DNA of 64,000 bases, taken from positions 1-64,000 of the forward strand of contig JACXVD010000003.1 in the NCBI GenBank assembly GCA_014763545.1, read 5' to 3'. A model generated the notes under the pieces. The model was given only the letters and a program-made list of their open reading frames with translations, was not told the origin of the DNA and did no database searches. A program made the position numbers and the translations under genes. How positions within the stretch are numbered: the first letter of the stretch is position 1; each line of letters begins with the position of its first letter. This DNA is from Sphingomonadales bacterium. Its GTDB lineage: Bacteria > Pseudomonadota > Alphaproteobacteria > Sphingomonadales > Sphingomonadaceae. Positions 10,067 to 26,319 of the stretch are shown here, in pieces.

Positions 10067-10944
10067 TGGCGTCGATCCCCGAAGACAAGCCGGTGGGCGC
10101 CAGCGCGATCGAACAGCGCCGCGCGGCCGACCATGAGAGCTTCCTGTCGCACAAGCGGCTGCGCTGGCTGAAGATCGCGACCGTCTTCTGCCTCGTCGCG
10201 ATCCTCATCTACGCCTTCACCCCGTTCGAACCGCGGGCCAACGGCGGCACCTGGTACGGCTATACGTTGGGCACGATCGGTGCGCTGCTGATCGTGTGGC
10301 TGTCGCTGCTGGGCATTCGCAAGCGGCGGATGACCGAAGGGCACTGGTCGTTGAAGGCGTGGACCAGCGCGCATGTCTATCTCGGCCTGGCGCTGATCGT
10401 CATCGCCACGCTGCACACCGGCTTCCAGTTCGGCTGGAACGTCCACACGCTGGCCTATGCGCTGATGATGCTGGTGATCGTTTCGGGCATTTACGGCATC
10501 ACCGTCTATGCCATGCTGCCCCAGCGGCTGAGCGACAATCGCAAGGACATGACCACCGAGATGATGGTCGAGGCGCTCGGCGCGCTCGATCGCCAGCTTG
10601 CCAGCGCCGCCCAGCCGCTGGACCGCGCGGATGCCGACATGGTGCTCGCCGCGCTGGACCAGGACCCGTTCGGCTTCGGCCTGTGGACGCGCCTGTCGGG
10701 CAATTACCGCCGCTGCGCCACGCAAAAGGCGCTGGACCATTTCTCGGGCGGCTATGCGGAGGATTCGGTCGACGGGCGCATCCGATCTCTGCTCTCGCGC
10801 CGCCGCGCGCAGCTCGCACAGATGCGGCGGCACATGAAACTCAAGGCCATGCTGGAGGTCTGGCTGTTCGTCCATATCCCGGTCACCATCGCCCTGCTCG
10901 CGGCCCTGACGGTGCATATCGTCAGCGTGTTCTTCTACTGGTGA
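10066..10944 (+). CDS. Four-helix membrane protein, probable diheme cytochrome b subunit
   Basis: This 292-residue protein has four hydrophobic helices (about residues 37-55, 68-85, 98-150 and 265-290). Histidines lie in helices at SAHVYLGLALIVIATLHTG, WNVHTLAYALMML, VWLFVHIP and LTVHIVSVFFYW, spaced for bis-His heme ligation as in cytochrome b561/NapC-partner b-type subunits. A soluble, probably cytosolic insertion of about 110 residues sits between helices three and four. It overlaps the oxidoreductase stop (TGATG) and is followed 11 bases later by the FHA-decaheme gene, so it should connect the cytosolic ferredoxin to the periplasmic hemes, perhaps exchanging electrons with quinone. No exact family recognised. 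Confidence 0.7.
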   Translation: MASIPEDKPVGASAIEQRRAADHESFLSHKRLRWLKIATVFCLVAILIYAFTPFEPRANGGTWYGYTLGTIGALLIVWLSLLGIRKRRMTEGHWSLKAWTSAHVYLGLALIVIATLHTGFQFGWNVHTLAYALMMLVIVSGIYGITVYAMLPQRLSDNRKDMTTEMMVEALGALDRQLASAAQPLDRADADMVLAALDQDPFGFGLWTRLSGNYRRCATQKALDHFSGGYAEDSVDGRIRSLLSRRRAQLAQMRRHMKLKAMLEVWLFVHIPVTIALLAALTVHIVSVFFYW

Positions 10945-10955: not shown

Positions 10956-12740
10956 ATGGCTTTCCTGATCGAGACCATCGACATCACCGACAGCGGGCGC
11001 GAAATCGTCCGCAAGAAGGAACTGGCCGCCGACGCGCTCACCATCGGGCGCGATGCGGCGAGCGACATCCATCTCGACGATCTGGCGGTCGAACTGCATC
11101 ACGCGCGGATCGAACCGCATGTCGGCGGGCAGCTGCAGGTCGTGGCGGAAACCTCGCTGGGTTTCGGGCTGGAAGGGCGCAGCACGACCAGCGCCGTGAT
11201 CGACCCGAAGGCGGGCGCCGAGCTGGAAATCGGCTCCTACCGCCTGACCGTGTCGCAGGACGCGGGCGAGCCGCCGACCATCTCGATCCGCAAGGCTGAC
11301 GAGAAGGAAGGCGCACGGCTGGACAAGGTAGCCGGCTTCTCGCTCGGCGAAGTCATGCCCAGCAAGCGGCTGGTCGGCTGGGCGGCGCTGATCGCCATCC
11401 TCGTCGCGTTCCTCGCCATCCCGGCCTACACATTCGCCACCCGCGACCGGGTGGCCAAGCCCGATATCAAGCAACCCGGCCAGGTGGTGATGGATGCCAG
11501 CTGGTCCACCGGCAAGCTCAGCCTCGCCCACCACGGGCTGGAGGACAATTGCGAGGCGTGCCACGTAAAGGCGTTCGAGCCGGTGACCGACAAGACCTGC
11601 CTGACGTGCCACGAAGACGTGCACGACCACGCCGATCCGGCGCGGATGGACAAGGGCCGCGGCCCCCTGTCGCCGGGTGACGAGCTGCAGTGGAAGATCG
11701 CCCATGCCTTCGGCAAGCCCGGGCCGGGCGCCTGTTCGGACTGCCATACCGAGCATGAGGGCATGACGAAGATGCTGCCGCCCTCGCAGCGTTTCTGCGC
11801 CGATTGCCACAGCTCGCTCGACACGCGGCTGACCGACACCACGCTGGGCAATGCCAGCGATTTCGGCACGGCGCATCCGCAGTTCAAGGCAGTGGTATTC
11901 ACCGAGCCGGGGCAGAAGGAACCGCAGCGCATCTCGCTCGACAAGCATCCGCGACAGTTCAGCGGGCTGCGCTTCCCGCACGAATTGCACCTCAACCCGC
12001 GCGGCGGGGTGGCCCGGATGGCGGGCAATATCGGCGCGAAGGCAGGCTATGGCGGCGACGGGCTGGAGTGCAAGGATTGCCACCGGCTCAACAAGGACAA
12101 GTCGAGCTTCCTGCCGGTGGAGATGGAGCGCGACTGCGAAGCCTGCCACAGCCTGGTGTATGACAAGGTCGGCGATACGTTCCGGAGCCTGCGCCACGGC
12201 AAGGTGGATGAAATGCGCGCCGATCTCGCCGCGATGGATCGCAGCCCGCGCCGCCCGATCGTGACCGGCCGCCGCCGCCCCGGCGAATTTGCGCAGGGCG
12301 GACTCTACTACCAGGATTTCGGTCGCCCGGCTCCGTCGCTCGTCGGCATCAGCAGGGCACTCTCGCGCGACGGGATCTGCGGCGAATGCCACTATCCCAC
12401 CACGAAGAACGGGCGCGCCGATGTGCTGCCGGTGCGTTTCAGCCAGCGGTATTTCACCAACGGCTGGTTCGATCACGAAGACCACATCGCCATCCAGAAG
12501 GGCAAGAAGGCCGAATGCACCGACTGCCACAAGGCGGATGCGTCCAAATCCTCCGAAGACCTGCTGATGCCGGACCTCAAGATCTGCCGCGACTGCCACA
12601 TGGGGCAATATGATACAAAGGCGGATGTTCCCTCGGGCTGCGCCATGTGCCATTCCTATCACCCGAGCGGCTCGGACATGCCCGCAGGCCATCCCCAGAT
12701 GGCCCCGCGGCGGTCGCCGCGCACGCGCGGCAAGACCTGA
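10956..12740 (+). CDS. FHA domain-TM-decaheme cytochrome c fusion
   Basis: The 594-residue protein has an N-terminal cytosolic FHA-like domain (about 20-110; LTIGRDAASDIHLDD, with conserved arginine and histidine in HHARI), a linker and one transmembrane helix at about 132-155 (GWAALIAILVAFLAIPAY). A periplasmic region follows with ten CxxCH heme motifs: CEACH, CLTCH, CSDCH, CADCH, CKDCH, CEACH, CGECH, CTDCH, CRDCH and CAMCH. FHA domains bind phosphothreonine, so the electron carrier may be tethered or switched by phosphorylation of a partner. The C-terminus is basic and proline-rich. It is third in an operon with the oxidoreductase and membrane cytochrome and would receive electrons from, or deliver them to, the latter. 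Confidence 0.88.
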   Translation: MAFLIETIDITDSGREIVRKKELAADALTIGRDAASDIHLDDLAVELHHARIEPHVGGQLQVVAETSLGFGLEGRSTTSAVIDPKAGAELEIGSYRLTVSQDAGEPPTISIRKADEKEGARLDKVAGFSLGEVMPSKRLVGWAALIAILVAFLAIPAYTFATRDRVAKPDIKQPGQVVMDASWSTGKLSLAHHGLEDNCEACHVKAFEPVTDKTCLTCHEDVHDHADPARMDKGRGPLSPGDELQWKIAHAFGKPGPGACSDCHTEHEGMTKMLPPSQRFCADCHSSLDTRLTDTTLGNASDFGTAHPQFKAVVFTEPGQKEPQRISLDKHPRQFSGLRFPHELHLNPRGGVARMAGNIGAKAGYGGDGLECKDCHRLNKDKSSFLPVEMERDCEACHSLVYDKVGDTFRSLRHGKVDEMRADLAAMDRSPRRPIVTGRRRPGEFAQGGLYYQDFGRPAPSLVGISRALSRDGICGECHYPTTKNGRADVLPVRFSQRYFTNGWFDHEDHIAIQKGKKAECTDCHKADASKSSEDLLMPDLKICRDCHMGQYDTKADVPSGCAMCHSYHPSGSDMPAGHPQMAPRRSPRTRGKT

Positions 12741-12774: not shown

Positions 12775-13623
12775 ATGCTGATTGGGCAGATCACCGATAT
12801 CCATATCGGCTTCGAACCGGACGCACGGCCGGAAGAGCTGAACCGGATCCGCTTCCGCGCCACCCTTGCCCGCATCGTGGAAGGGCCCAACCGGCCCGAC
12901 ATGCTGGTCGCCACCGGCGACATGACCGATCGCGGCGACTGCGAAAGCTTCGAACGCACCGCCGAGCTGCTGGGCGCGTGCCCGTTCCCCGTCTATCCGA
13001 TGGTCGGCAACCACGACACGCGCGAGGCCTTGCTGCGCGCCTTCCCCGACACCCCCAGCGCCGACGGTTTCGTGCAATACGAGGTGGAACGCGGCGGGCT
13101 GCGTATCCTGCTGCTCGACACGCTCGAACCCGGCCGCCACGGCGGCGCCTTCTGCGAAACGCGGGCCGCCTGGCTGGCCGACCGCCTGCGCGAGCGGCCC
13201 GACCAGCCGACGCTGATCTTCATGCACCACCCCCCGGTCGTCGCCGGGATCGACTGGATGGACCCGGTGGCATCCGAAGGGTGGATCGCCCGCTTCGGCG
13301 AGGCGGTGGCGGGGCAGGACCAGATCGTGGGGATCCATTGCGGCCACCTGCACCGCCCGATCTTCACCATGTTCCGGGGCCACCCGCTGGGGGTAACCCC
13401 GTCGGTCGCGCCGCTGGTGGCGATGGATTTGCGCCCGATCGACCCCGACACGCCCGACGGGCGCGACCTGATCACCACCGAACCGCCGACCTATGCCCTC
13501 CACCGCTGGGACGGCAGCACGCTGGTGACGCATTACGAACGGGTCAGCGACTGGCGCGTGCTCGCCAGCTACACGCCGCAATTGCAGGGCATGATCCGCG
13601 AAATGTTCGCCGAGCGCGAATAG
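12775..13623 (+). CDS. Calcineurin-like phosphodiesterase (CpdA/class III cNMP phosphodiesterase type)
   Basis: The 282-residue metallophosphoesterase has all dinuclear-metal motifs in order: DIHIG near the N-terminus, GDMTDRG, GNHDTR, MHHPP and GHLHRP. The pattern and length match the CpdA/Rv0805 class III cyclic nucleotide phosphodiesterases. The ATG at 12775 gives MLIGQITDIHIGFEP, the normal N-terminus of the family; upstream in-frame sequence is the out-of-frame tail of the cytochrome gene. It follows the cytochrome by 34 bases on the same strand, in the operon whose first gene has two cNMP-binding domains, so cAMP or cGMP turnover is the favoured role. Other phosphodiester substrates remain possible. 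Confidence 0.85.
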   Translation: MLIGQITDIHIGFEPDARPEELNRIRFRATLARIVEGPNRPDMLVATGDMTDRGDCESFERTAELLGACPFPVYPMVGNHDTREALLRAFPDTPSADGFVQYEVERGGLRILLLDTLEPGRHGGAFCETRAAWLADRLRERPDQPTLIFMHHPPVVAGIDWMDPVASEGWIARFGEAVAGQDQIVGIHCGHLHRPIFTMFRGHPLGVTPSVAPLVAMDLRPIDPDTPDGRDLITTEPPTYALHRWDGSTLVTHYERVSDWRVLASYTPQLQGMIREMFAERE

Positions 13624-13625
13624 GC

Positions 13626-13701: not shown

Positions 13702-16700
13702 CTATTGCCCGCCCATCGCTGCATCGTCGCCGCTGTCCGCCCGGCGCGGGCCGGTGCCGGGGACCCAGGCGGACATGTCGACATTGTCGCTGACCTTCCA
13801 CGGGGTGCCGCCGCGGGTCAGGAACAGCCGCTCCATCTCGGGCCTGGTGAAGGGCCGCGAACCCAGCCGGCCGAAGATCGCGATCTGGCCGCCGGTTTCG
13901 TCCACCGCGCGGTCGCGGTCGAGGCCCTTGGACATGGCGATGGTCGCGCCCTTGGTCTTGGCCCAGGCGATCAGTTCGGGCTTGGGCGGCGGGCTGAAGC
14001 CATAGAAGCCGCGCTGGCTCGCCGGGCTGGTCAGTTGCAGCACCTTCATCCCGTTCACCCCGTCGGCGACATAGGCGAAGAGCGAGGCATTGGTCGTGCC
14101 GACCACCACATCCTCGACATCGTTCATCCGCCCGCCGAAGGTTACCTTCTGGTAGATCTTCGGCGCCAGCGGATGCTTGACGTCCACGATCACCAGCCCG
14201 TCCTGCTTGGCCGCGACATAGGCATAGGTGCGCGCGACATAGAGGCGGCGGGCATCGGCCAGCGGGATGGTTGCCGCAGGCACCGCCACCGGGTTGCGCA
14301 TGTTGGTGACATCGAACAATTCGACCCCGCGTGCGGTGGTGACCCACAGGTAACGGAACTGGATCGCGCTCGCCCGCGCGTCGGGCAACTCGCGCACCGC
14401 CGCGAGCTGCGGGTTCAGCGGGTCGGACAGGTCGACCACCACCAGCCCCTTGTCCGCCGCGATATAGGCGATCTCGCCCGCCAGGGTGATGTGCCGCGCC
14501 CCGGCGAGCACCCCGTCGGGGTTCCAGGTGACCGCACGCTTCAGCTTGTTGTTGCGGAATTCGCCATCGGCAAATGTGTCGACATTGACCAGCACCAGCC
14601 CTTCCACCGCGTCGGTGATCGCGGCGTAGTGATAGATCGGCAGGAAGGCCTGCTCCTGGTTCATTTCGCGCATTTGTTCGGTGTTGCGGGTGGGCGCGAT
14701 GGCCTGCATCGTCGGCAGCGCCATGCAGGTGGCGTTGGCCGTCTTGACCCGCGCATCGTGGCCGAGCGGCGAGAACGGGGCAGAGACGATCCGTTCGGAG
14801 AAGCCCTTGTTGGCGATCGCCGCCACGTCATAGACCGCGAAGCCGCCTTTGCCTTCGGCCACGAACATGTATTCGCCGCGCAATTGCAGGCAGCCGACCC
14901 GGTCGCGCGTGCCTTCGTGCACATTGGCGAATTGTTCGAGCGGATGGGTTTCGCCCGACAGATCCTTGTCCAGCACTTCGCCGCGGGTCCAGTCCTTCAG
15001 CTCGCGGTCGTTGTCCTCCACGAACTGGCGGTAATATTCGGGATAGGCATATTTGTGCAGGTAGGACCCGAGCACCGCCTGCGGTTCGTCCCATTCGGTA
15101 ACGCGCACCGCCTCGAACCCGTTATCCTCGCCGGTCCAGGCGTTGAGGCCGACGAAATTCACGAAATTGGTGCCGAGCAGCAGCAGCTGCGACATGATCG
15201 CATTGTTATCGTCGGCATCGGACAGATGGCAGTCGGTGCAGGTCTTGGTCTCGGTCAGCCGCACCGTGTGCGGGAAATGCGGCGCGAAGGCCTGCGAGCT
15301 GAAGCCGACCGCGCTGATCGGCGGTTGCTGCACATAGATCCGTTCGCGGTTGATGTTGGTCGAGGACAGCACCAGCGCCGAGGACGAACGCACCGGCGCG
15401 ATCTCGCTGCCCTTGGTCGTCATGTGCTTGCCCAGCTGGAACATCTGGTCGCGCGCGACCTGCGGGTTGTAGGTCGCGAAATTGCGCGTTTCCTCGCCAT
15501 CGTAGTGATGCAGCGCGGTCTTCCAATTGGCCTCGATCGGCAGGTGGCAGCCGCCGCAGCTGGTGGTCCACGACAGGTGGCAGGTAAAGCAGGCCATCTC
15601 GCTGTCCTTGTGGGCGCGATTTTCCGGCGCGATGCCGGGGCCAAATGCGAAGTTGCCGTCTTCCGCCCCGCTCTCGCTCATCAGCTTGGCGCGCGCCGAC
15701 TTGGCGTTGAAGCAGGGGCTGTTGTTGCTGCTCTCGGTGGTGATGCAGGGCGGCAGCGCGGGATCGACGCTGTCCTTCACCAGGCTGACCCGCCATTCCA
15801 GCTTGGGATCGACCAGCGAACGCTGGATCAGCACCCTCCGCCCGGCCTCGTCATACGACCATTCGAAGCGGCGCTGCCCGTCGGGATTGCGCAGCAGCGC
15901 CAGATTGGTGCCCTTGGGCGGCGCCGCCGGCCCGCTGGTCAGGAGGTTGGGATAGGCATCGGCGGTGCCGTGGCAATCCTTGCAGCCGATCTCGATCGCA
16001 TTGGCGACTTCGCCATAGACCAGCCCGTTGCCGTGACTGTCCTGCGCAAAGTGGCAATCGGCGCATTGCAGGCCCTTTTCGGCATGGATGTCCATCATAT
16101 GGACCGCCTTGCCCGGGTTCGCACCTTCCGGCTTGGGTTCGACGAACTTGCCTTCATCGCCCTTGCGCCATTTCTCCGGATCGTCGGGATCGACGATCTT
16201 GCCATAGGCATCGAGGAGGTTGCCGTCGCGGTCGCGCTTGAAGATCGCGCGGAAATTCCAGCCGTGGCCATGGTAATCGGCGAACTGGGTATCCTGCAGC
16301 TCGGGGTTGAGATCGTAGACGTTGCGCAGGAAGTCGAGGTCGGCCCACTTGCCGCGCGGTGCAGCCCCTTCTGGGTTGCGTTCAAGCACCTTGTGTACCT
16401 CTTCTGCGGTCGGGAACTTCTGGTGCTCCGGCCACATCTTCGGCGCGTCGGATTCGTAATCCCACATGGTGAAGCCGAGGTAGGAATTCAGGAAGATATT
16501 GGGCTGGTGCATGTGGCAGTTCATGCACTGGCTGGTCGGGATCGAGCGGGTGAAGATATGCTGCAGCGGGTGCCCCTTCTCCTTCATCGGAGCGGCACCG
16601 TCGCCGTGATCGTCCCTCTGCTCTTCATCGCCCGGTTGTTTCAGTGCGCCGTGCCCGCCTTCCCCGTGCGCATCGCCATGTTCGGGCTCAAGCTTGTCGG

Positions 16701-17817
16701 AAATGGTCGGATCGACGGTGATCGTCTGCCCGTCGCGCCCATATTGCGCATAGATCGACGCCTCGCGCGGTTCGCGGCTGTTGGCATAGATCACGTGGCA
16801 GGCGGTGCAGCCCGAATGGCGATAATCGCCCGGCTGGTCGTTGGTGCCCATGAACCACATGAAGGGATCGTTGAGGCGGGTCTTGTGGATGTTGAGCACC
16901 GGGATCGCGACGCGCAGGCCCGTTGCCGGGCCGCGGCTCGACTGCTTGAGGTCGGGCCGGCCCGGCTCTTCCAGCCGCTGGATCGACCCGGTCGGGTTGG
17001 GCAGGCCGATTTCGGCGAATTGCGTGCCGATCACGCGCCCGCCGCGTTCGAACACGCGGAAAATGTCGGCCGGCGGCACCACTGTCCACATCGGCAGCGG
17101 ATAGAGCGCGGCCAGCGCGCCGCGTGCCTTCTGCCGGTCGGTCAGTTCGCCCGGCGGGTCGCCCGGGCTGACGATCTTCGCCGCTTCGCCGTTGCGGGTA
17201 TAGGCCTCGCCCAGCACGTAATTCTTGTAGGGGACGATGCCGTTGTTATAGGCCGCCCCGCCCCACAGCATCGCGCCGGTCGCCATGATCGAGCGTTCGG
17301 CGGCCTCGATGATCGGCAAATGGCACGATCCGCAGGCCTCGCGCGCGACGCGGTAATCGCCCGGGTTCACGAAGCGGATGAATTCGGGCGCCTCGCGGTT
17401 GAGCAACGCATAGGTGCGCGGCGGGTTGGCCGACGAGGGATAATGCCAGCTTTCCGGGAAGCGCGGCAGCACATGCGCCCGTTCGCGCGCGGCAACATAG
17501 AGCGGATCGTCATGCGCCAGCTTGCTGTCACCGACCACACTCGGATCGCCCCCGTGGCAATCGACGCAGCCGATCTTGACCGCCGTGGTCGCATGCATCG
17601 TCGGCGCATCGGTGCGCACATGGCAGGAATAACACCCGTCGGACTTGGCCGCGACCTGCACATCGTCCTGGTTGAACGGCGCGGGCGGCGCGGCGACGCG
17701 CGCATAGTCGCGCTCGACCGGCTTTTCGCCTTCCGAGGCGCGGGTCTGGCCGACCATCAGCGCGGCGGCGAGGGTGAAGACGGCGGCCCAGAAGGCGAAG
17801 AGGCGGGTGATGCGCAT
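13702..17817 (-). CDS. Decaheme cytochrome c with C-terminal LVIVD-type propeller
   Basis: The 1371-residue exported protein has an N-terminal signal peptide (LFAFWAAVFTLAAALMVG, cleavage near TRASEG). Ten CxxCH motifs are spread over the first ~900 residues: CYSCH, CVDCH, CGSCH, CTACH, CMNCH, CADCH, CKDCH, CFTCH, CGGCH and CTDCH. The last ~400 residues carry repeats such as GLVVVDLSDPLNPQL, VELFDVTNMRNPV and GLVIVDVKHPLAPKI, the LVIVD repeat that forms a beta-propeller and often mediates surface protein contacts. There is no lipobox. It is the last gene of a four-gene operon, overlapping the barrel gene (TGATG at 17819-17815). A periplasmic or surface terminal redox protein is likely. I do not recognise the substrate; a histidine/aspartate-rich insert (HGDAHGEGGHG) might bind metal. 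Confidence 0.85.
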   Translation of the reverse strand: MRITRLFAFWAAVFTLAAALMVGQTRASEGEKPVERDYARVAAPPAPFNQDDVQVAAKSDGCYSCHVRTDAPTMHATTAVKIGCVDCHGGDPSVVGDSKLAHDDPLYVAARERAHVLPRFPESWHYPSSANPPRTYALLNREAPEFIRFVNPGDYRVAREACGSCHLPIIEAAERSIMATGAMLWGGAAYNNGIVPYKNYVLGEAYTRNGEAAKIVSPGDPPGELTDRQKARGALAALYPLPMWTVVPPADIFRVFERGGRVIGTQFAEIGLPNPTGSIQRLEEPGRPDLKQSSRGPATGLRVAIPVLNIHKTRLNDPFMWFMGTNDQPGDYRHSGCTACHVIYANSREPREASIYAQYGRDGQTITVDPTISDKLEPEHGDAHGEGGHGALKQPGDEEQRDDHGDGAAPMKEKGHPLQHIFTRSIPTSQCMNCHMHQPNIFLNSYLGFTMWDYESDAPKMWPEHQKFPTAEEVHKVLERNPEGAAPRGKWADLDFLRNVYDLNPELQDTQFADYHGHGWNFRAIFKRDRDGNLLDAYGKIVDPDDPEKWRKGDEGKFVEPKPEGANPGKAVHMMDIHAEKGLQCADCHFAQDSHGNGLVYGEVANAIEIGCKDCHGTADAYPNLLTSGPAAPPKGTNLALLRNPDGQRRFEWSYDEAGRRVLIQRSLVDPKLEWRVSLVKDSVDPALPPCITTESSNNSPCFNAKSARAKLMSESGAEDGNFAFGPGIAPENRAHKDSEMACFTCHLSWTTSCGGCHLPIEANWKTALHHYDGEETRNFATYNPQVARDQMFQLGKHMTTKGSEIAPVRSSSALVLSSTNINRERIYVQQPPISAVGFSSQAFAPHFPHTVRLTETKTCTDCHLSDADDNNAIMSQLLLLGTNFVNFVGLNAWTGEDNGFEAVRVTEWDEPQAVLGSYLHKYAYPEYYRQFVEDNDRELKDWTRGEVLDKDLSGETHPLEQFANVHEGTRDRVGCLQLRGEYMFVAEGKGGFAVYDVAAIANKGFSERIVSAPFSPLGHDARVKTANATCMALPTMQAIAPTRNTEQMREMNQEQAFLPIYHYAAITDAVEGLVLVNVDTFADGEFRNNKLKRAVTWNPDGVLAGARHITLAGEIAYIAADKGLVVVDLSDPLNPQLAAVRELPDARASAIQFRYLWVTTARGVELFDVTNMRNPVAVPAATIPLADARRLYVARTYAYVAAKQDGLVIVDVKHPLAPKIYQKVTFGGRMNDVEDVVVGTTNASLFAYVADGVNGMKVLQLTSPASQRGFYGFSPPPKPELIAWAKTKGATIAMSKGLDRDRAVDETGGQIAIFGRLGSRPFTRPEMERLFLTRGGTPWKVSDNVDMSAWVPGTGPRRADSGDDAAMGGQ

Positions 17818-19733
17818 CAGTAGGTAAAGGTCACATTGGCGAGGACCGAATAGTAATTCCGGTCATTCCCGAGATTGTCGAACAGGTCGCGGAAACCGCC
17901 GCCTGACAGCAGCGTGGCAGCCGACAGGCGGAAGACGATGTTCTGCGTCGCCTTGGGCCGCCAGATCGCTGAAGCGGACAGATCCCAGCCGATATCCTTG
18001 GGGATGCTGCCTTCGTTGCGCAGCACCTGCATGGTCGCGGTATCCTCGAACCACAAATGGTTGGCATTGCCGGTCAGTCGCAATTCGGGCGAGATATCGA
18101 AATCCGCGCCCACCCCCAGCAGCATCAGCCCCGGATTGTTGAAATTCGACTGGCCCTGTTCCTTCGAACTGCGCAGCGAATTGAGTATGCCGTTGCGCCC
18201 GTTGACCGAGATCACCCGCCCGCCGCCTGCGAAGGGGATCGTCTGGCGCACCCAGTAACTGGTGTCTGCCCCGGCGAAGATCGGGTTTTCGAAGATCGCA
18301 TCGAACCCGGTCTCGGTGTCGTCGTAGGGGTCGCTGTCGCCGCTGGCCCATGCGCCCGACAGGCGGAAGCGCATCCAGTCGTGGTCGTAGCTCAGCTCCG
18401 CCGCGCCGAAGAAGCTGCGGATCTTGGCCGGGCGCGAGGTGAAGAAGCTGTTCCGGTCTTCGCCCAGCGCGGCATAGGCGCTGGCGGTAACGTTGATCCG
18501 CCCGATGCGCCCATCGGCATTATAGCCGAGATAGACCACATCGTAATCGCGCCCGCGCAAGTCGCCCAGCAGCGCCGGGCGTACCGGAAAGCCATTGTCG
18601 TCGATCTGGACGTCGTTGCCTTCGCGGTTGCGATTGTAGACCACGGTGACCTGGCTGGTGAGCGCCGGAATGGGGAAATCCTGCCGGTAGATATTGCCGA
18701 CGAAGACGAAATCGTCGCGCGGTTTCTGCAGCACCGCATTCAGCCCGCTGTTCGTGTCTTTCTCCAGCCGCCAGAAGGCCGCGAGATTGAACTGCACCCG
18801 GTTGTTGTCGCGATTGCCGAACAATCGCACGCCCAGCTGGTTGTCGTTGAACAGGAAGCCGCGAAAATCAGACTGGAACGGCTGGATGCCCGCGCGGATC
18901 GAGATGAAATCGAAGCGCGACGTATCGAACCGGCCCATGTGGTAATCGACGAAGGCTTCCTGCACGCCCAGGAAATGATCGGTGCGGTGCGTCGGCTTGG
19001 ACGGTTCGACATAGAGCACGCGGCGTTCGGGCACTTTGACGTGATTGACGTTGAAGGCCAGCGTCAGGCGATATTCCACCACCGGCGGTTTGAACGCCGT
19101 CATCCCCTTGAGCAGTGCGGCGCCCACGATGAACGTCTGCGAAGCGACATAGCTCGCATCCTTGCCGAACACATCGAGGCTCTGCGGCCGCGCGGTGGTC
19201 TGCACACCCACAGGGATCGGGAAGGTGCGCGGTTCGAGCACCGTGTCCGAAATCCCGTTCAGCACGAAGAACCAGTCGTTCCCCTTGATCGGCAGCCACG
19301 GCACTTTCGCCGGGTTGATCGGCCGGTCACCCTTGTAGGTGTTCTGGTGATAGGGGTCGGAGAATTTCTCCGTCACCAGCCCCAGCGACTGGATCAGCCG
19401 CCAGCGGTCGGGAATCGGGATCTGGTCGGTCGGGAAGGCTTCGGGCGGCGGCGCGCGCACTGCGCCTTCGTTATCCTGCATCGCCCGGTCGGGCAGGTCG
19501 GGGGTGTAGCCCGGCCGACGGCGGCCATCGATGATTTCGGGATCGACCGGCGGCACGGTCTGCTCGTCGTAAGGCGCTACATCGGGAGCGGGCGCATCGG
19601 GAGTGGGCGCATCAGCCCCGCTGTCCTGCACAACCGCCGCCTGCGCGGCCGCATCACCGGGTGTGCCGGGGGGCAGTTCGCCCGCAGCCTGCTGGAGCGC
19701 AAGGGGCAGGAAGAGGAGCGCGTTCACCGCCAT
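17817..19733 (-). CDS. Outer-membrane beta-barrel protein partnering the multiheme cytochromes
   Basis: The 638-residue protein has a short N-terminal signal-like stretch (NALLFLPLALQQAAG), a proline/alanine-rich periplasmic segment to about residue 110, and then alternating amphipathic strands with many aromatic residues, ending VLANVTFTY. The C-terminal aromatic residue is the signature of outer-membrane barrels. Motifs such as FRLSGAWASGDSDPYDDTET are like those of the alginate-export/long-chain porin group. The start codon follows the stop of the lipoprotein gene with no gap (TAG then ATG). A barrel encoded directly with a decaheme cytochrome recalls porin-cytochrome conduits (MtrB-MtrA type), although it has no visible MtrB CXXC motif. 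Confidence 0.75.
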   Translation of the reverse strand: MAVNALLFLPLALQQAAGELPPGTPGDAAAQAAVVQDSGADAPTPDAPAPDVAPYDEQTVPPVDPEIIDGRRRPGYTPDLPDRAMQDNEGAVRAPPPEAFPTDQIPIPDRWRLIQSLGLVTEKFSDPYHQNTYKGDRPINPAKVPWLPIKGNDWFFVLNGISDTVLEPRTFPIPVGVQTTARPQSLDVFGKDASYVASQTFIVGAALLKGMTAFKPPVVEYRLTLAFNVNHVKVPERRVLYVEPSKPTHRTDHFLGVQEAFVDYHMGRFDTSRFDFISIRAGIQPFQSDFRGFLFNDNQLGVRLFGNRDNNRVQFNLAAFWRLEKDTNSGLNAVLQKPRDDFVFVGNIYRQDFPIPALTSQVTVVYNRNREGNDVQIDDNGFPVRPALLGDLRGRDYDVVYLGYNADGRIGRINVTASAYAALGEDRNSFFTSRPAKIRSFFGAAELSYDHDWMRFRLSGAWASGDSDPYDDTETGFDAIFENPIFAGADTSYWVRQTIPFAGGGRVISVNGRNGILNSLRSSKEQGQSNFNNPGLMLLGVGADFDISPELRLTGNANHLWFEDTATMQVLRNEGSIPKDIGWDLSASAIWRPKATQNIVFRLSAATLLSGGGFRDLFDNLGNDRNYYSVLANVTFTY

Positions 19734-21746
19734 CTACAGCCCCTGGCAGACATTCTGTTCGGATGAATCGAGGAACGGGGCGAAGGGGCAGCTGACATAA
19801 CGCAGCCGCACCTTCCGGCCCGAAACGTCGACCACGATATTGTCGGCGCGGATGCCGACCGGCGCATTGCCGATCGTGCCTGTCGCCAGCCCGCCATTAT
19901 GCGCGCCGAGGAAGCTGACCATATCGTCCTGGTCGATGCCATCACCCGACACGCCGATCCCGCCGACCAGCACATTGCCGCGATAGATCGGCACCGAGCC
20001 GGGGAAGATCTGGACGCCGTTGGCAATCCGCGGCTCGCCCTGCGCGGTCAGCGGCAGCTGGGTGCAGTAACGCGGCGTATCCGCGCTCGCCCCGCCGCTG
20101 TTCACATAGGCGAGATGCTGCACCAGGTTCGGCACCACCAGATCGGTCTGCAGCCCGACTGCGAAGGGGCTCCACAGTGCCGACTGCGCCACCGACAGCG
20201 GCCCCGGCGGCTGCGCCACTTCGCCATCGGGGAAATAGGGGCGCGAAAGATTGCCGCCCGAGCGGTCGGCAAAGGCGAACGTGCCGGTAAGCGCCGCGGG
20301 GTCCTGCAGGAACGTCCGCACCCGCGAAACATAGGCGGGAATATCGGTCAGCCCGGGGATCGACGGGGTGGCGAGCAGCTCTGCCCCGGCATGGCTGCCG
20401 GAAAAGAAGGTCGCCGTGCGCGCCTTTTGCAGCGACACATCGGTGCCGAAGATCGGCCCGTCGGGCGAGCGGACGATGCCGAGCACCTGCCCATTGGTGT
20501 CGACCACGCTGACCGTTGCCTGCATCCGGCTGTCGAGCGGGCGGCGGATCTGCGGGCGGGCGCGCGACAGCACGCCGAAAGCATTCTCCAGCACCGCCTG
20601 CACTTCCGCCTTGGTCAGCGGCTGCGCCACCGACGCGGCATCGGTGCCGCCACGGATGGGGTAGCGGTCGTTACCGCTGCCGTCGGTCAGGACATAGGCT
20701 TCGGTATTGGCGAATTCGCCCGCCTTGGCCTGGCGCACGCCCGAAGCTTCGCTGCCATAGGCGGTGCCGGCGTGGATCGTGCCATCGGTATAGCCGGTGA
20801 TCGCCAGCAGCATGCCCAGCGTAACATTCACCGCGCCGAAATTGCCCGACAGCGGGGCCAGATCGCCGGCAGTCGCATCGCTGAAGCGCAGGGTTGTGCC
20901 ATCCACCGGGATGCGGTCGGCGCGGATTTCATCGGGCGGGGTGAATCCCTGCGTACCCGCAAGCGCGATCGCCTCTTCCGCGTCCTGGTCGATGTCGAGG
21001 ATGTTGGGGTCGAACGAATAATCCTGGTCGCCCATCACCCCGATCCCGCCGACGACGACGCCATTCTTGTAGAGCGGGAAACCGCCCGGATCGGCCGAGA
21101 GGCCAAGCGGCGAACGCTTGGGCCCGATCAGCGCCGCCGCGCCGCCCATCGGGTTGTAACGCTGCGAAAGGTCGGAACAGGGCAACTGGCTGAACTGCAC
21201 GCCAAACAGCGGCCCGCTCTCCAGCCCCACCGTGGTGGGTGCGGGCGGGAAATGCTGTTGGACGATCTGGCTCGCCGTGCGGCTGGAAAAGGCATTGCCG
21301 CTGCTGGAGAGATAGGCGCCGGTGATCGCCTTGGCGATGGCCGCTGCGGCAGCCGGGATGGTCTGGCCCTGCAGGCCCACCTCGCTGCCGCTGGCGGCAA
21401 CACCGCCGATACGGTTGCGGCTGATCACGGCAGTATCCGCCGCCCCGTTCATCTTGAACACGGCCAGCACATTGCCCACCCGGTCGGTCACCGCGATCAC
21501 CACCGGCAGCTTGCGCGCCTGCGCCTCGCCCACGGCCTGCGCGATCACCTGCTGGACATCGGCAACGCTCAGCGAAAGCAGCGCGGGCTGGGTGTAGAGC
21601 GCACCCGAAGTCGGGCTGGGCGTGGGGGTCGGCGTGCCCGAGGTCGGCGGGCCATAACCGCCCGAACTGCCCCCACCCCCGCCGCAACCGGCAAGTGCGA
21701 GCGCAGCCGCAAGGCAGGCGTAAGTGCCGGGGCGAGAGCGCATCAA
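19734..21746 (-). CDS. Tandem GlcG/HbpS-domain lipoprotein
   Basis: The 670-residue protein has a lipoprotein signal (LAAALALAGC with lipobox cysteine at about residue 21), then a glycine/proline/threonine-rich tether. Two GlcG/HbpS-like domains follow, recognisable by VIAVTDRVGNVLAVFKM in the first copy and TVSVVDTNGQVLGIVRS in the second, and by the repeated GVVVGGIGVMGD / NVLVGGIGVSGD elements. HbpS proteins bind heme or act as extracellular redox/heme sensors, and this fold forms oligomers. Four non-lipobox cysteines are present. It overlaps the preceding cytochrome gene by four bases (ATGA) and abuts the barrel gene, so it is part of the same envelope complex or heme-supply step. The duplication within one chain is unusual. 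Confidence 0.8.
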   Translation of the reverse strand: MMRSRPGTYACLAAALALAGCGGGGGSSGGYGPPTSGTPTPTPSPTSGALYTQPALLSLSVADVQQVIAQAVGEAQARKLPVVIAVTDRVGNVLAVFKMNGAADTAVISRNRIGGVAASGSEVGLQGQTIPAAAAAIAKAITGAYLSSSGNAFSSRTASQIVQQHFPPAPTTVGLESGPLFGVQFSQLPCSDLSQRYNPMGGAAALIGPKRSPLGLSADPGGFPLYKNGVVVGGIGVMGDQDYSFDPNILDIDQDAEEAIALAGTQGFTPPDEIRADRIPVDGTTLRFSDATAGDLAPLSGNFGAVNVTLGMLLAITGYTDGTIHAGTAYGSEASGVRQAKAGEFANTEAYVLTDGSGNDRYPIRGGTDAASVAQPLTKAEVQAVLENAFGVLSRARPQIRRPLDSRMQATVSVVDTNGQVLGIVRSPDGPIFGTDVSLQKARTATFFSGSHAGAELLATPSIPGLTDIPAYVSRVRTFLQDPAALTGTFAFADRSGGNLSRPYFPDGEVAQPPGPLSVAQSALWSPFAVGLQTDLVVPNLVQHLAYVNSGGASADTPRYCTQLPLTAQGEPRIANGVQIFPGSVPIYRGNVLVGGIGVSGDGIDQDDMVSFLGAHNGGLATGTIGNAPVGIRADNIVVDVSGRKVRLRYVSCPFAPFLDSSEQNVCQGL

Positions 21747-23173
21747 CGCAGCGCCTCGATCGCGGCAGCCGCCCTGCCCAGCGCCGCGCGGAATTCCGCC
21801 GGGCGATAGGCTTGTGGGCTGCGCACGGCGGCATAGGCCCGGTTGATATCCGCCCTGATCCCCGCTGCCGCGCCGGTGGTCACCCGCCCGTCGCGCACCA
21901 GTGCGTTGAGCAGCGTGTCGACCGCCATCACCGCCTGCGCCGATCCGGTGTAGTCGGTGAAGCGTGCATTGGTCGCCTTGGCGGCAATCGCCGCAATCAC
22001 GGTGAAGGCATCGTTCCCGCCATAGCTGCGGGCGGCCAGCGCGCCCGACAGCGCCTGGGCGCGGTCGCCCAGCCGCCCGGCAGCCGCCGCCGCGTCAGCC
22101 CGGCCGCTGGCCATCGAGCGATGGAAATCCATGCTCGCCTGGTCGAAGCCTGCCGCCTGCGCCGGGGCGAGCACCCGGCCCACGGCAGAGAGCATGATCA
22201 TGTTCTCGTCATTGAACGGCGCATAGCCGAAGGCGATCGGGCGCCCCGGATTGGTCTCGAAGGTCCGCGTCGCATTGGGCCCGTCGTTGATCGGGCGGTG
22301 GCAGCTATGGCAGTCGAAGAAGTAATATTCGGGGAACACGCCCTGGCTGCCGAGCCGCGTGGCGAACAGCCTGGTCTGGCGGCGCACCGCCTCTGCCTGG
22401 CCCACCGCCCACAGCTTGACCCCGTCGACCACCGGCTTGCGCGCGCGGTAATCGGCGTCGACCTGGTGGTGTTGCTGCAGCGCGCTGAACAGGTCGAGTT
22501 CGAAGGACACGCGCGGATGGCCCGCTGCCATCATCGAATGGGTGACGAATTGCCCGCTGTCGGTGCTGCCGAAGTGGCAATCGAGGCAGACCTGCGCGCG
22601 CACCTGCGGATTTTCCAGCGGCACCATGCCGTTGGCGACGTTCTGCGCGTGGGTGACCTTGGCGCCACTGTCCGGCTCGTAGAGCGAATAATGGCTGGCG
22701 ATCCAGTTGCCGGAGGGGCCGTGGCAGCTTTCGCAGCCGACCCCGTCGCTGATCTGGAAGCGCGCGCCCCGCTGCGCGGCGGGGGCGAAAGTCGCGTGGC
22801 AGCCGAGGCATTCCTTGGCCGAAGTGGCCGGGCCGAGGCCGAGCGCGGCGGCGATCTGGCGGCCTCGCGGGCTGCCCAGCACGGCGTAGGCGCGGCTGTG
22901 CGCACCGCTGGGCGAGGACGGTTCCTGCCAGGTGGCGATCTCGTCCTGCCGCACTTCCTCGCCATTGCCTTCCGCGCGACCGTGGCAGGTCGATCCGGCG
23001 CAACTGGCGACGCCCTCGTAATGGCCTGCGCCGCCCGCGGCCCTTGCCTGCGGCGCAGCACCAGCCTGGAAAAACAGCGAGAGGGCAAAGACCAGCGGCA
23101 GCGCCAGCAATCCCGCCCAGCGCAGCGCCAAGCGCATGCCGCGCGACAAATCAGGCATGTCAGCCAGTGTCAC
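21743..23173 (-). CDS. Cytochrome c554-like multiheme protein (five heme sites)
   Basis: The 476-residue exported protein has a signal/anchor helix (LRWAGLLALPLVFALSLFF, about residues 17-36). Heme motifs are CLGCH, CESCH, CLDCH and CHSCH, plus a first, non-standard site CAGSTCH with four intervening residues. The sequence TWQEPSSPSGAHSRAYAVL and the following CLGCHATF resemble the cytochrome c554/hydroxylamine-oxidoreductase-like superfamily. The C-terminal ~150 residues are heme-free and helical. The GTG start at 23173 is preferred because GGGAGGG lies 7 bases upstream; in-frame ATGs lie at codons 6 and 13. First gene of the four-gene operon. It probably shuttles electrons in the periplasm; enzymatic activity cannot be judged. 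Confidence 0.82.
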   Translation of the reverse strand: MTLADMPDLSRGMRLALRWAGLLALPLVFALSLFFQAGAAPQARAAGGAGHYEGVASCAGSTCHGRAEGNGEEVRQDEIATWQEPSSPSGAHSRAYAVLGSPRGRQIAAALGLGPATSAKECLGCHATFAPAAQRGARFQISDGVGCESCHGPSGNWIASHYSLYEPDSGAKVTHAQNVANGMVPLENPQVRAQVCLDCHFGSTDSGQFVTHSMMAAGHPRVSFELDLFSALQQHHQVDADYRARKPVVDGVKLWAVGQAEAVRRQTRLFATRLGSQGVFPEYYFFDCHSCHRPINDGPNATRTFETNPGRPIAFGYAPFNDENMIMLSAVGRVLAPAQAAGFDQASMDFHRSMASGRADAAAAAGRLGDRAQALSGALAARSYGGNDAFTVIAAIAAKATNARFTDYTGSAQAVMAVDTLLNALVRDGRVTTGAAAGIRADINRAYAAVRSPQAYRPAEFRAALGRAAAAIEALR

Positions 23174-23412: not shown

Positions 23413-24138
23413 TCAGCCTTGCGGCGTCGCCATCCCGGCGGAGAGGATATCCAGCTGCGCGTTGCACCCTTTTTCGATCAGGGCGGCAGCCAGTTCCTCC
23501 GGTTCTTGTGGCACTGTTTCGATCAAGGCGAAAGTCACCTTGCTTTCGGGCACACCGCCTGGCCCCTTGATAGTGTATTGCGTGTCGCTTGCCAGCGGCA
23601 ATTGCTGCGTATCCCACAGGGCGACGTCGACGCTGTCGTCGAACAGCACATTCACCGTGGCCCCGCTGGGCGCGGCGACGGAATAATTGGCGATCCCCTT
23701 GCTCTCGGCACGCCACAACCGCACGACCGAAGCGTCGGCCAGACACATGGTGCCCGACCGGCCGACATCGACATACCAGATCGACGGAACGGTGCTCGAC
23801 TGGTCGCCGCGAATCGCCCCGGTGCGGGCCCTGACCGCCGAGCGCTGGCGGGTAAGCATGGCGAATTTTGCTTGGTTGGGCGTGCCCGGAGCGCCGACGA
23901 CGCGCGTCCCCGGCCCGGTCAGCACCCGCGTGCCCTTGGCATCGAGGATGGTCACCGAATCGCCCTCTTTCAGCGTGATCCGGTCGGTATCCGCCAGCTT
24001 CTTGCCGCGTGGGAACTGGCTGGCGGATGGCCCGCTGGACGCGACGACGGTGCCGGCATGCGCCGCCCCCGAGAGCGCCAGAACCATGGCTCCACCGACC
24101 AGAGCGGTGGTTTTCGCGATTGCCCTACCCCAGAACAT
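23413..24138 (-). CDS. FecR-like exported protein paired with the CHASE2 cyclase
   Basis: The 241-residue protein has a signal peptide (TTALVGGAMVLALSGAAHA) and a central FecR-like segment (RITLKEGDSVTILDAKGTRVLTGPGT written in parts: DSVTILDAKG, RVLTGPGTRV). Two cysteines are present. It overlaps the cyclase gene by 14 bases, the usual FecR-CHASE2 arrangement in which a periplasmic FecR protein is thought to modulate a CHASE2 sensor. The stretch 23174-23412 between it and the cytochrome operon contains no gene I can support and should hold that operon's promoter. Confidence 0.75.
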   Translation of the reverse strand: MFWGRAIAKTTALVGGAMVLALSGAAHAGTVVASSGPSASQFPRGKKLADTDRITLKEGDSVTILDAKGTRVLTGPGTRVVGAPGTPNQAKFAMLTRQRSAVRARTGAIRGDQSSTVPSIWYVDVGRSGTMCLADASVVRLWRAESKGIANYSVAAPSGATVNVLFDDSVDVALWDTQQLPLASDTQYTIKGPGGVPESKVTFALIETVPQEPEELAAALIEKGCNAQLDILSAGMATPQG

Positions 24139-26143
24139 AGGTTCCGTCCTCGCTCAGATTCTGCGTCCGCATTAGCAAATTCTCCAGTGCCTTGTCAGCC
24201 GGGTAACGGCTGGCAATCTCTTCGATCATTTCTATGGCTGCGGCCCGGTTATCCCTGATGATGGCCACTGCCTTGTCGAGCGTTTGCCGATCCTGAACGG
24301 GGAAATCGGGCGCCGGTTCGTAGATATCGACCGGCTGGGCGCGCCCGCGCAGGACGATCCGGCCCATCGCCCGCCACCAGTCGAGCCCCGAGCGCTCGGC
24401 AAACTCGCGGCTCGCCATGACCGAGCTCTTGAGCGGCTTGTTGGCCGCTTCGAGCCGGGCGGCGGTGTTCATCGAATCGCCCAGCGCAGTGTACTGGATG
24501 CGCCGCTCGCCACCGAAATTGCCGACCACCGCCTCGCCCCAATGCAGGCCCACGCGCGTCTTGCCGACTTTGGGCAAGTTGGGGTCCATCGCGGCGACCT
24601 CCGCGCGGAAATCCTCGCCCGCTTGCCAGATCGCATAGCCGCATTGGGCCGCACGTTCGCCGTCACCCTCGCGCGCGATCGGCGCCCCCCAGAAGGCAAC
24701 CACCGCGTCGCCCACGAATTTGTCGATCACACCGCCATGATCGAGCACCACCTGGCTGAGCATTTCGAGATAGCGATTGAGCAGCTTGGCGACCATTTCC
24801 GGCGTCAGCGCGTGGCTCATCTGGGTGAAGCCTTCGAGGTCGGAGAAGAGGACGAAGATTTCCTTCTTCTCTCCGTGCAGCGCCAGCAGGTGCGGCTTGT
24901 CGACCAGTTCTTCCGCAATCGAGCGCGGGATATATTTGCCCAGCGCCCCTTGCGCGAACTGGCGCTGCACCGCGGTGGAGGCGCGCGCGGCGGAGGTGAC
25001 CGCGGTGAAGGCAAGGATCCACGCCAGCAGCCAGCCGAAGGCGGGCAGATTGTAGGTATCGACCCCGCGCCATTGCAGCAGGAACGGGGCACCGAGGAAC
25101 AGCGCGAACTGCGCGAACAGCAGCGGGTATATTCGCCAGCTGCGCAATTCGAGCAGCCCGGTCAGCGCCGCAGCGAAAGCCACAAGCACAGCGAGCAGCC
25201 AGATCGTCCACGGCGCAATCGCGGGCAGGCGGGCGCCGTCGAGCATCTGCGCGATCAGGTCGGCATGCACTGCCAGCCCCGCCGGCATATCCCCATTCAC
25301 GCTGGTGAGGGTCGTGGCGACCCGGTCGAAATCGATAATGTCGCCGCCGATCAACACGTAGCGGCCCCTGACCGCGTCGGCCATTGCCGGGGCCAGCTCG
25401 GGGTCCACGAAATTGTCGATCTGCAATTCGGTATAGATCGGCGCATCGCGCAGCGCCGGGATGCGATAGCGGATCGCCCCGGTATAGCCAGGAAGCGATT
25501 TGTCTTGCTCGCCCGCACCGATGAGCATTGCGCGGCCCAGGACCGGCGGCAGGCCTGGCTCTATGCTCGGCCAGATACGCGTTGCGCCATAGGTGTTGTC
25601 GAGCCGGATGCTCGCGGCCTGCGCCTTGCTGCCGGCAAGCCGGGCGACGAAGCTCTTCAGGAATTCCTGCTGCTCCCACTCGATATCGTCGGGATTGGTC
25701 GCCATTTCCGCGAGCGCCACATAGGTCGGCGTGTTCATCGCACGCAGGGCGGCGACCAGCTGGTCGTCTTCGTCCTGCGGCTGGTCGAACAGGATGTCGA
25801 TCCCGATCGCCTTGGCGCCCATGGCATCGAGATTGGCTAGCGCCTTGGCCAACAGGCCCCGATCGAGCGGCGAGCGCTTGCGCGCGGCGATCAGCGTCTG
25901 GTCGTCGTAGACAACCAGCAGGATGCGAGGGTCCTGCTCGATCTTCTGCGCGGTCAAGGCACTGCGATAATCGAACAGGCCGCGTTCGGCGTCGCCGGTG
26001 ATCGGCAGGTACCAGCTGAACCGGGCAAGCAGGATCGCGAGCACCACCAGCAGCGCGGTCAGCGCCAGCCGTTGCCGCCCGGCCGAGCGCAGATTGCGCC
26101 AGCCGGTTGCGATCATGCTGTATTTCCGCCCGCTGTCCGGCAT
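24125..26143 (-). CDS. CHASE2-domain class III adenylate/guanylate cyclase
   Basis: The protein is about 672 residues from the ATG at 26143 (a second candidate ATG is at 26116). A signal-anchor helix (ALTALLVVLAILLARFSWYL) leads into a periplasmic CHASE2 domain (ILLVVYDDQTLIAARKRSPL, AIGIDILFDQP). Three transmembrane helices follow, then a cytosolic class III cyclase domain with metal and catalytic residues in LFSDLEGFTQMS, DKFVGDAVVAFWGAP and TALGDSMNTAARLEAANKP. All active-site elements appear intact, so it should make cAMP (or cGMP). It overlaps the FecR-like gene. As the only nucleotide cyclase visible near two cNMP-binding domains and a CpdA-type phosphodiesterase, it is a candidate input for the multiheme island. 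Confidence 0.9.
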   Translation of the reverse strand: MPDSGRKYSMIATGWRNLRSAGRQRLALTALLVVLAILLARFSWYLPITGDAERGLFDYRSALTAQKIEQDPRILLVVYDDQTLIAARKRSPLDRGLLAKALANLDAMGAKAIGIDILFDQPQDEDDQLVAALRAMNTPTYVALAEMATNPDDIEWEQQEFLKSFVARLAGSKAQAASIRLDNTYGATRIWPSIEPGLPPVLGRAMLIGAGEQDKSLPGYTGAIRYRIPALRDAPIYTELQIDNFVDPELAPAMADAVRGRYVLIGGDIIDFDRVATTLTSVNGDMPAGLAVHADLIAQMLDGARLPAIAPWTIWLLAVLVAFAAALTGLLELRSWRIYPLLFAQFALFLGAPFLLQWRGVDTYNLPAFGWLLAWILAFTAVTSAARASTAVQRQFAQGALGKYIPRSIAEELVDKPHLLALHGEKKEIFVLFSDLEGFTQMSHALTPEMVAKLLNRYLEMLSQVVLDHGGVIDKFVGDAVVAFWGAPIAREGDGERAAQCGYAIWQAGEDFRAEVAAMDPNLPKVGKTRVGLHWGEAVVGNFGGERRIQYTALGDSMNTAARLEAANKPLKSSVMASREFAERSGLDWWRAMGRIVLRGRAQPVDIYEPAPDFPVQDRQTLDKAVAIIRDNRAAAIEMIEEIASRYPADKALENLLMRTQNLSEDGTYVLG

Positions 26144-26184
26144 GCGCGAAATGCGCCCTCCCGCCTGGTGAGGCTCCGCCGAAT

Positions 26185-26217: not shown

Positions 26218-26319
26218 ACGTGGTGGAACCGGACCTGCCCCCGCAGGCCCGGCCGCACAAAAGACGTTCGATGCGACAATTTCAAGGCCGCACAGCCAAC
26301 AGGCCGGATATTTCCGATG

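Follow-up and report, generated by a model that had tools for sequence, protein, structure and literature searches.

The porin–cytochrome cluster PCC4 was predicted in Hyphomicrobium, Zetaproteobacteria, and other bacteria by He et al. (2017, PMC5566968); for this and the other papers cited here, parts of the published text are the source. In that independent study, PCC4-type clusters are read as conduits and comprise a porin, periplasmic cytochromes of 4, 5, and 10 hemes, an Fe–S protein (pfam13247), and other redox proteins. Their inner-membrane protein has five helices, two WX3HX13H motifs, and SGXXG, and it was likened to the membrane domains of ferric reductases and NADPH oxidases; clusters with the Fe–S protein upstream of it are PCC4 subgroup II. 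PCC3, the bearers of which include an Erythrobacter sp. (PMC5566968), has cytochromes with medians of 34 and 21 hemes and 22–39 residues per heme (PMC5566968; also PMC10734462). The extHIJKLMNOPQS cluster of Geobacter encodes the porin ExtI, the cytochromes ExtM and ExtN, and the cytochrome b ExtP, and is said to be non-analogous to the pcc clusters (PMC5877670). In this work, we analyzed a stretch of 64,000 nucleotides from a Sphingomonadales bacterium (assembly GCA_014763545.1, contig JACXVD010000003.1, positions 1–64,000), referred to below as the window. It contains two operons for redox and outer-membrane proteins: an inner half at 7601–12740 and an outer half at 13702–23173.

Two operons inherited as one system

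A first-pass annotation of the window had described the outer half as four overlapping genes for a c554-like pentaheme protein, an HbpS-like lipoprotein, a barrel, and a decaheme protein with LVIVD repeats. All four genes were found as described. The proteins of the two operons are as follows:

7601..10066, + strand: flavoprotein with pyridine-nucleotide oxidoreductase, two cyclic-nucleotide-binding, and ferredoxin domains (Pfam; PF13247, 41.5 bits, cut-off 26.2)
10066..10944, + strand: membrane cytochrome b with 5 predicted helices, two WX3HX13H motifs, and SGXXG (alignment A5)
10956..12740, + strand: inner-membrane-anchored FHA-like decaheme protein of 594 residues with one helix (139–157) and a ten-heme domain (PF00498 just under the cut-off)
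13702..17817, − strand: decaheme protein of 1371 residues with ten CxxCH and C-terminal LVIVD repeats (PF08309, 60.4 bits, cut-off 20.2)
17817..19733, − strand: outer-membrane beta barrel of 638 residues without Cys (AlphaFold2 model)
19734..21746, − strand: HbpS-like lipoprotein of 670 residues with the lipobox LALAGC (PF03928, 79.1 bits against a gathering cut-off of 25, three stretches)
21743..23173, − strand: c554-like pentaheme protein of 476 residues with an N-terminal signal or anchor (PF13435, Cytochrome_C554, 44.2 bits, cut-off 20.8)

In the list of open reading frames (ORFs), all four outer genes lie on the − strand in the order c554-like, HbpS-like, barrel, decaheme, and the inner operon is divergent to them. 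The barrel and decaheme genes have one base in common (TGATG), and the c554-like and HbpS-like genes overlap by 4 bases, provided that the listed TTG is the HbpS start. The HbpS-like and barrel ORFs merely abut, so that the described overlap does not extend to this junction. The search for promoter-like sites at 12500–24300 found none, while shuffled sequences gave a mean of 1.3.

The co-occurrence of both halves, which the first-pass annotation had suggested looking for, was followed through 149 genomes of the family representing 96 genera. The barrel was found in 53 of them and the decaheme in the same 53 (Fisher p 1e-41). The FHA decaheme was present in 52 of these carriers and in none of the 96 non-carriers; the carrier lacking it (G022) is 67% complete. 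Three genomes (G155, G324, and G514), whose loci were read only in part, are counted as carriers. Thus, about a third of the sampled genomes of this large family (53/149) carry the set.

As far as contig ends allow, the order of the four outer genes is kept in 51 fetched loci. A scan of named genomes yielded at least 554 barrel relatives, and the 80 best are referred to here as named loci. All four outer genes occur in the same order in 72 of these, the remaining 8 being cut by contig ends, and the full set of four is present in each of the 61 named loci that are 18 kb or longer. In 49 of the 80, the same stretch also encodes the inner-half proteins (flavoprotein, cytochrome b, and FHA decaheme). 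All seven genes are present in L206 from Erythrobacter longus DSM 6997, a cultured strain. Among these best 80 of at least 554 relatives, the carriers belong to Erythrobacter, Porphyrobacter, Novosphingobium, Sphingobium, Sphingopyxis, Sphingomonas, and other genera. The carrier genera are known rather for aerobic degradation or aerobic anoxygenic phototrophy, and such conduits are seldom sought in them. It should be added that about 2.9 kb of other ORFs separates HbpS from the barrel in one genome (L049:6080–8800).

The two halves are not always close to each other. The FHA decaheme and the outer decaheme lie together in 26 of the 53 carriers (25 fetched stretches and the window), the inner half was retrieved from a different location in 20, a search places it elsewhere in 6 (unfetched), and it is missing in 1. 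That the halves are inherited together even when they lie apart strongly suggests that they act jointly, and we conclude that the two operons are one co-inherited system. The opposite explanation, a fortuitous proximity of the two operons and the barrel, each with a function of its own, could draw on the divergent orientation in the window and on the 20 family genomes with the inner half elsewhere. It is refuted by the matching distribution over the 149 genomes and by the contiguity of the halves in other families, and we consider its probability negligible.

This contiguity was seen when the search was extended beyond the family. The barrel profile matched 29 of 385 genomes of the class, and the cytochrome b profile gave 37 strong matches in the same genomes, including all 29 barrel carriers (ten weak rows with E above 1e-21 were dropped). 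The decaheme profile gave 11 full matches among 398 genomes of the phylum, namely 8 in the own family, 2 in the class, and 1 in another class; three short matches (G707, G745, and G615) were dropped from the counts. Among the 23 loci read from other families of the class, a single cluster encoding the flavoprotein, cytochrome b, FHA decaheme, HbpS, barrel, and decaheme was seen in 21, the remaining two (L150 and L152) being cut by contig ends; in 12 of the 23, the stretch includes the c554-like gene. Both halves are contiguous in L165 (from the other class) and L167, and they are on one contig in L166 and L168. A protein of about 159 residues is encoded in 14 loci outside the family, e.g., L164:6554–7033, where it lies between the FHA decaheme and HbpS.

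The barrel is also carried by 13 plasmids, 12 from Sphingobium and 1 from Sphingopyxis, of which 11 were typed as non-mobilizable and 2 as conjugative. All 12 Sphingobium plasmids carry the FHA decaheme as well. On the conjugative megaplasmid pMSHV of Sphingobium herbicidovorans MH (L268), the stretch covered combines the outer four genes with those for a phosphoesterase, cytochrome b, and the FHA decaheme and with one end of the flavoprotein gene. On another such megaplasmid, pMC4 of Sphingopyxis indica (L271), the outer four genes lie beside gdhA and putA.

The proposed electron path and its direction

The reading we prefer, with a probability of about 0.48, is that the two operons encode one trans-envelope electron path, in which a PCC4-type inner half is joined to a different outer half and which ends at or outside the cell surface. 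The flavoprotein would take electrons from cytosolic NAD(P)H via FAD and relay them across four [4Fe-4S] clusters; the 16 cluster Cys of its ferredoxin part are invariant in all 44 aligned sequences. In the window copy, the flavin domain has no CxxC, and the protein is therefore unlikely to be a disulphide reductase. Cytochrome b would then move the electrons across the inner membrane via two b hemes to the FHA decaheme. Its His103, 117, 127, 270, and 284, including the four His of the HX13H motifs, are invariant in 65 of 65 rows, and the full motif set (two WX3HX13H and SGXXG) is present in 63 of the 65. Among 33 members, 22 matched PF01292 and 2 matched PF01794, the ferric reductase/NOX membrane domain (best E 1.3e-3). 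When its profile was compared with PDB sequences, ATP-synthase b, coiled-coil-like, and other rows appeared at E of 0.03 or above and were taken as spurious.

In the FHA decaheme, the 10 heme Cys are invariant in 69 of 69 rows, exactly 20 His are kept at 97% or more, which is the number needed by ten bis-histidine hemes, and all 45 orthologues uncut by contig ends have 10 CxxCH. The NapC/NirT domain PF03264 gave no row for the six proteins of the two operons other than the flavoprotein. From the FHA decaheme, electrons would be shuttled through the periplasm to the decaheme–LVIVD protein by the c554-like pentaheme, presumed to be a periplasmic carrier. This protein has four CxxCH sites and one CAGSTCH (CX4CH), and the 4+1 pattern is kept in all orthologues uncut by contig ends, L080 being a broken ORF. 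The 5 heme Cys are invariant in 63 of 63 rows, and 11 His are kept at 97% or more. A lipobox count for this protein (35/62) was not used, since the lipobox pattern also fits its first heme site.

The decaheme–LVIVD protein, together with the barrel and the HbpS-like lipoprotein at the outer membrane, would deliver the electrons to an acceptor located on the cell surface or beyond it. In the alignment of the HbpS-like protein (78 rows), the lipobox Cys at residue 21 is found in 61 rows, with a gap in 16 and Ser in 1. As the HbpS-like family is described as heme-degrading, a path that reduces ferric iron or handles heme at the surface, with this lipoprotein as the binder, was also considered, and assimilatory ferric reduction would suit carrier genera known as aerobes. 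Nevertheless, inspection of the recurrent neighbours by eye revealed no TonB receptor, and 25 c hemes would be a large iron cost for a gain of iron, which makes such an assimilatory role very improbable.

Export of electrons is favoured over uptake on weak evidence: the flavoprotein offers a low-potential entry, the set encodes no pump, and the carriers are not enriched for reaction centres (12/53 carriers and 13/96 other family genomes, p 0.17) or RuBisCO (2/53 and 5/96). A link with photo-autotrophy was rejected on these counts. The reverse route, as drawn for PCC3 and PCC4, would take electrons from an extracellular donor, e.g., Fe(II) or Mn(II), and pass them via a quinone-reactive cytochrome b into the quinone pool, with the flavoprotein as a link to NAD(P). 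These clusters are found in iron oxidisers, and a Mn(II)-oxidising Erythrobacter is among the PCC3 bearers (PMC5566968). Furthermore, the window's own genome is one of 7 among the 149 that encode the RuBisCO large subunit (contig C62:7878–8801, 447 bits). Still, the missing enrichment counts against an autotrophic, though not a heterotrophic, use of such a route, and the flavoprotein is simpler as an electron entry because NAD(P)H production from such donors is uphill. We consider uptake unlikely. The flavin and cyclic-nucleotide input hints that the electrons come from a source distinct from the quinone pool.

The tandem cyclic-nucleotide domains of the flavoprotein (374–580) align to PKA regulatory subunits. 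Judging from the alignment, both appear intact, with E422, R431, E547, and R556 of their nucleotide cassettes invariant in 44 of 44 sequences. They may gate the flavoprotein step and, in sphingomonads, may be assisted by a cyclase and a phosphoesterase encoded nearby. The genes flanking the two operons in the window are as follows:

12775..13623, + strand: calcineurin-like phosphoesterase (PF00149, 59.8 bits; start inferred from the domain start, ORF opening at 12610)
24125..26260, − strand: CHASE2 adenylate/guanylate cyclase, upstream of the outer operon (motifs FSDLEGF, DKFVGD, and LGDSMNTAARLE)
23413..24138, − strand: protein between the cyclase and the c554-like protein, FecR-like by eye, without a Pfam or NCBIfam family, occurring together with the cyclase
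6539..7261, − strand: CcmH/CycH TPR protein of cytochrome c biogenesis, an accessory part encoded divergently to the inner half (PF23914, 58.4 bits)

The phosphoesterase is a candidate cAMP hydrolase, its nearest solved structures being the phosphohydrolase 2dxl and Rv0805/Icc, and it is present in 44 of the 45 family loci that hold the FHA decaheme. The linkage of the cyclase is partial within the family (13 fetched loci; 25 of the 80 named loci). An ORF judged by eye to be similar to the CcmH/CycH TPR protein occurs in 19 fetched loci. Near the inner half, the − strand of the window also encodes a TauE/SafE exporter (3791–4690) and a PAS-GGDEF-EAL protein (1290–3479). In the stretches around the operon in sphingomonads, genes named by eye as aldehyde-dehydrogenase-like (24 loci, e.g., L055:14533–15969) and acetolactate-synthase-like (21 loci, e.g., L077:2099–3754) were seen.

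The outer membrane and two outer modules

The AlphaFold2 model of the barrel (mean predicted local distance difference test, pLDDT, 65.5; predicted template modelling score 0.67) has 18 strands starting at residue 154. The N-terminal extension (residues 1–135) is mostly poorly modelled, though partly strongly conserved. The window barrel matched no Pfam family at E 0.01 and no NCBIfam family; among the 32 members of its family, one matched Alginate_exp (PF13372, E 6.5e-4) and no other family was matched. MtrB and PioB did not appear in the top 50 rows of Foldseek or VIA-align, an absence without the power to exclude such a fold. The MtrB/PioB sequence family, a model of which the Pfam and NCBIfam libraries presumably contain, was not matched by the window barrel or its 32 orthologues.

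The barrel is unusually conserved. Its identity to 31 orthologues is 60–84%, and in 20 of 20 chosen genomes the identity to the window copy is higher for the barrel than for the Omp85 barrel, which we take to be BamA (means 72 and 61%; for G014 and G021 the barrel value refers to the best segment only). Lateral transfer could contribute to this conservation.

The decaheme–LVIVD protein has an N-terminal signal, and its LVIVD repeats presumably form a propeller. Orthologues uncut by contig ends keep 10 CxxCH (L073 shows 9 with the start chosen); nine heme sites are invariant in 75 of 75 rows and the first in 74, with one gap. In Pfam and NCBIfam, the protein passes the cut-offs of generic heme and repeat models only, and its profile gave no match among PDB sequences at 0.01. 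The nearest sequence lead is a resemblance of residues 574–624 to ExtM (63.1 bits, equivalog cut-off 800). The DmsE decaheme family TIGR03508 (cut-off 192.2) scored 17.3 bits with the decaheme and 18.1 bits with both the c554-like and the FHA proteins.

A second outer module was found on the same inner half. Eight genomes of the class have a strong cytochrome b match and no barrel. In one of them, HbpS lies at the contig end (L253), another is represented by a small contig (L254), and six (G207, G403, G267, G523, G252, and G199) encode another pair, consisting of a pentaheme of about 600 residues and a barrel of about 530 residues (L255, L257, L258, and L259; also L263 and L264). The alternative pentaheme of the other five genomes is 66–79% identical to the G523 query. 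The second barrel has no detectable similarity to the first, with a probability of 0.1% in hhalign against one sequence, which is a weak test. The pair adjoins the inner half in four genomes and lies elsewhere in G403 and G199. As these six genomes keep cytochrome b and the inner-half decaheme with the other pair, the outer half looks exchangeable on one inner half. The second pentaheme was not found in 3 of 4 first-barrel carriers tested. Meanwhile, G155 (L267) has a 31% match to residues 507–614 of the second pentaheme, adjoined by a 26% match to the second barrel, so the two outer types may not be strictly exclusive.

Several observations weigh against the proposed path. The barrel model has the 18-strand substrate-porin fold of AlgE/Occ (VIA-align Z 25.3, root-mean-square deviation 3.3 over 363 residues), and a Foldseek search likewise gave this fold. 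The MtrB barrel, which sheathes a decaheme, has 26 strands; with 18 strands, the modelled window barrel would be narrower. A lipobox was found in none of 74 decaheme orthologues, which bears on the route of this protein to the surface, and the structure prediction of its residues 28–960 from 29 sequences was unusable (pLDDT 36.7). As for gating, none of the 23 other-family loci contains the phosphoesterase or the CHASE2 cyclase, and cAMP may not be a substrate of the phosphoesterase. At L257, one of the loci with the alternative outer pair, no flavoprotein was seen in the stretch covered. Finally, the flow proposed by the authors of PCC4 is reversed, with an outside donor feeding the quinone pool (PMC5566968).

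The first-pass annotation had itself stated what would speak against its proposal, namely a substrate porin unrelated to cytochromes and no co-conservation of the operon. A substrate-porin fold was indeed predicted, but the lack of co-conservation was refuted by the genomes. The predicted fold and the plain signal of the decaheme (lipobox 0/74) would suit a periplasmic reductase with its own porin, in which the decaheme stays periplasmic and reduces a soluble acceptor entering through the barrel, and nothing crosses the outer membrane. A precedent is ExtI, a porin-like protein encoded in a cytochrome cluster and implicated in selenite and tellurite reduction by Geobacter (PMC5877670); the 63.1 bits of residues 574–624 with ExtM (cut-off 800) point the same way. 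Such a reductase would not readily account for the occurrence of one inner half with two mutually dissimilar barrels, either of which is accompanied by a multiheme protein, for the HbpS part being a lipoprotein, or for the unusual conservation of the barrel. We regard it as somewhat unlikely. As for the full electron path from the cytosol to the surface that had been supposed for the two operons, they do form one co-inherited system (53 and 52 of 149 genomes), whereas the crossing of the outer membrane is what we infer, as is where the decaheme sits with respect to the barrel.

The trans-envelope path can also be put in a stronger form: an electron exporter common among Alphaproteobacteria, quinone-free and fed by cytosolic NAD(P)H, consisting of a flavoprotein gated by PKA-like tandem cyclic-nucleotide domains, a two-heme b cytochrome, 25 c hemes, and at least two dissimilar, interchangeable termini, one of them probably that of PCC4, sometimes carried on conjugative megaplasmids. 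This is tentative and, taken as a whole, rather doubtful. If it were true, electron export would be switched allosterically by a second messenger and the published PCC4 model would be reversed. More generally, a path that leads electrons out of or into the cell would extend the range of organisms capable of electron exchange with minerals, humics, electrodes, or other cells; otherwise, the set would represent a large conserved periplasmic reductase. In either case, the parts list is definite and can be tested in culturable strains.

Comparison with described systems

The first-pass annotation had compared the outer half to a porin–cytochrome conduit built from none of the named Mtr, Pio, or Omb parts. 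The latter holds, as no Mtr, Pio, Omb, or Ext family model in Pfam or NCBIfam was reached. The comparison is borne out insofar as the operon is conserved and the barrel travels with the cytochromes; barrel and multiheme genes are obligately linked (the same 53 of 149 genomes), as in porin–cytochrome conduits in the broad sense. However, PCC4, already in print, had not been named.

Like MtrCAB, PioAB, and MtoAB, the window operon combines a barrel with multiheme cytochromes. It differs from them in having no MtrB/PioB match, a DmsE score far below the cut-off (17.3 of 192.2 bits), no NapC/NirT inner donor, and 18 modelled strands. AlgE and the Occ/OprD porins resemble the window barrel in predicted fold, but the barrel is only about 15% identical to AlgE/Occ and occurs with cytochromes. 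The ext cluster likewise unites a porin-like protein, several multiheme proteins, and a cytochrome b, and ExtM matches residues 574–624 of the decaheme. This match nevertheless reaches 63.1 of 800 bits, and Geobacter has the Rieske-type ExtO where the window has the flavoprotein (PMC5877670). With PCC3, the window shares the same kind of inner-membrane protein. The heme density does not fit, with 137 (1371/10) and 59 (594/10) residues per heme in the window (PMC5566968).

The likeness to PCC4 is closest in the inner half. By comparison with the published description, the window cytochrome b has the same 5 predicted helices, two WX3HX13H motifs, and SGXXG, and the PF13247 flavoprotein lies directly upstream of it (PMC5566968). 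The heme counts differ, being 5, 10, and 10 in the window and 4, 5, and 10 in PCC4, and the outer half consists of the HbpS lipoprotein, the decaheme–LVIVD protein, and the AlgE-like barrel. HbpS, LVIVD, FHA, and cyclic-nucleotide parts are not named for PCC4 in the main-text sections of PMC5566968. Meanwhile, the alternative loci come nearer to PCC4. Their c554-like protein (L255–L259) has 4 CxxCH and one CX4CH, except in L257, so that the heme counts are 4, 5, and 10 in L257 and 4+1, 5, and 10 in L255, L258, and L259. Since these counts also resemble PCC4, the alternative pentaheme–barrel loci are probably the published PCC4.

In the open-licence PMC literature, consulted mostly as titles and the beginnings of abstracts and without supplements, no description of the HbpS–barrel–decaheme–LVIVD half was found. 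The comparison fits a cluster that shares the inner half of PCC4 and not its outer half, and the PCC4 conduit type would be widened by a second outer half. The kind of system is thus already known as a prediction, in PCC3 and PCC4; its outer half, its spread among the sphingomonads, and its link to tandem cyclic-nucleotide domains were not encountered in the literature covered.

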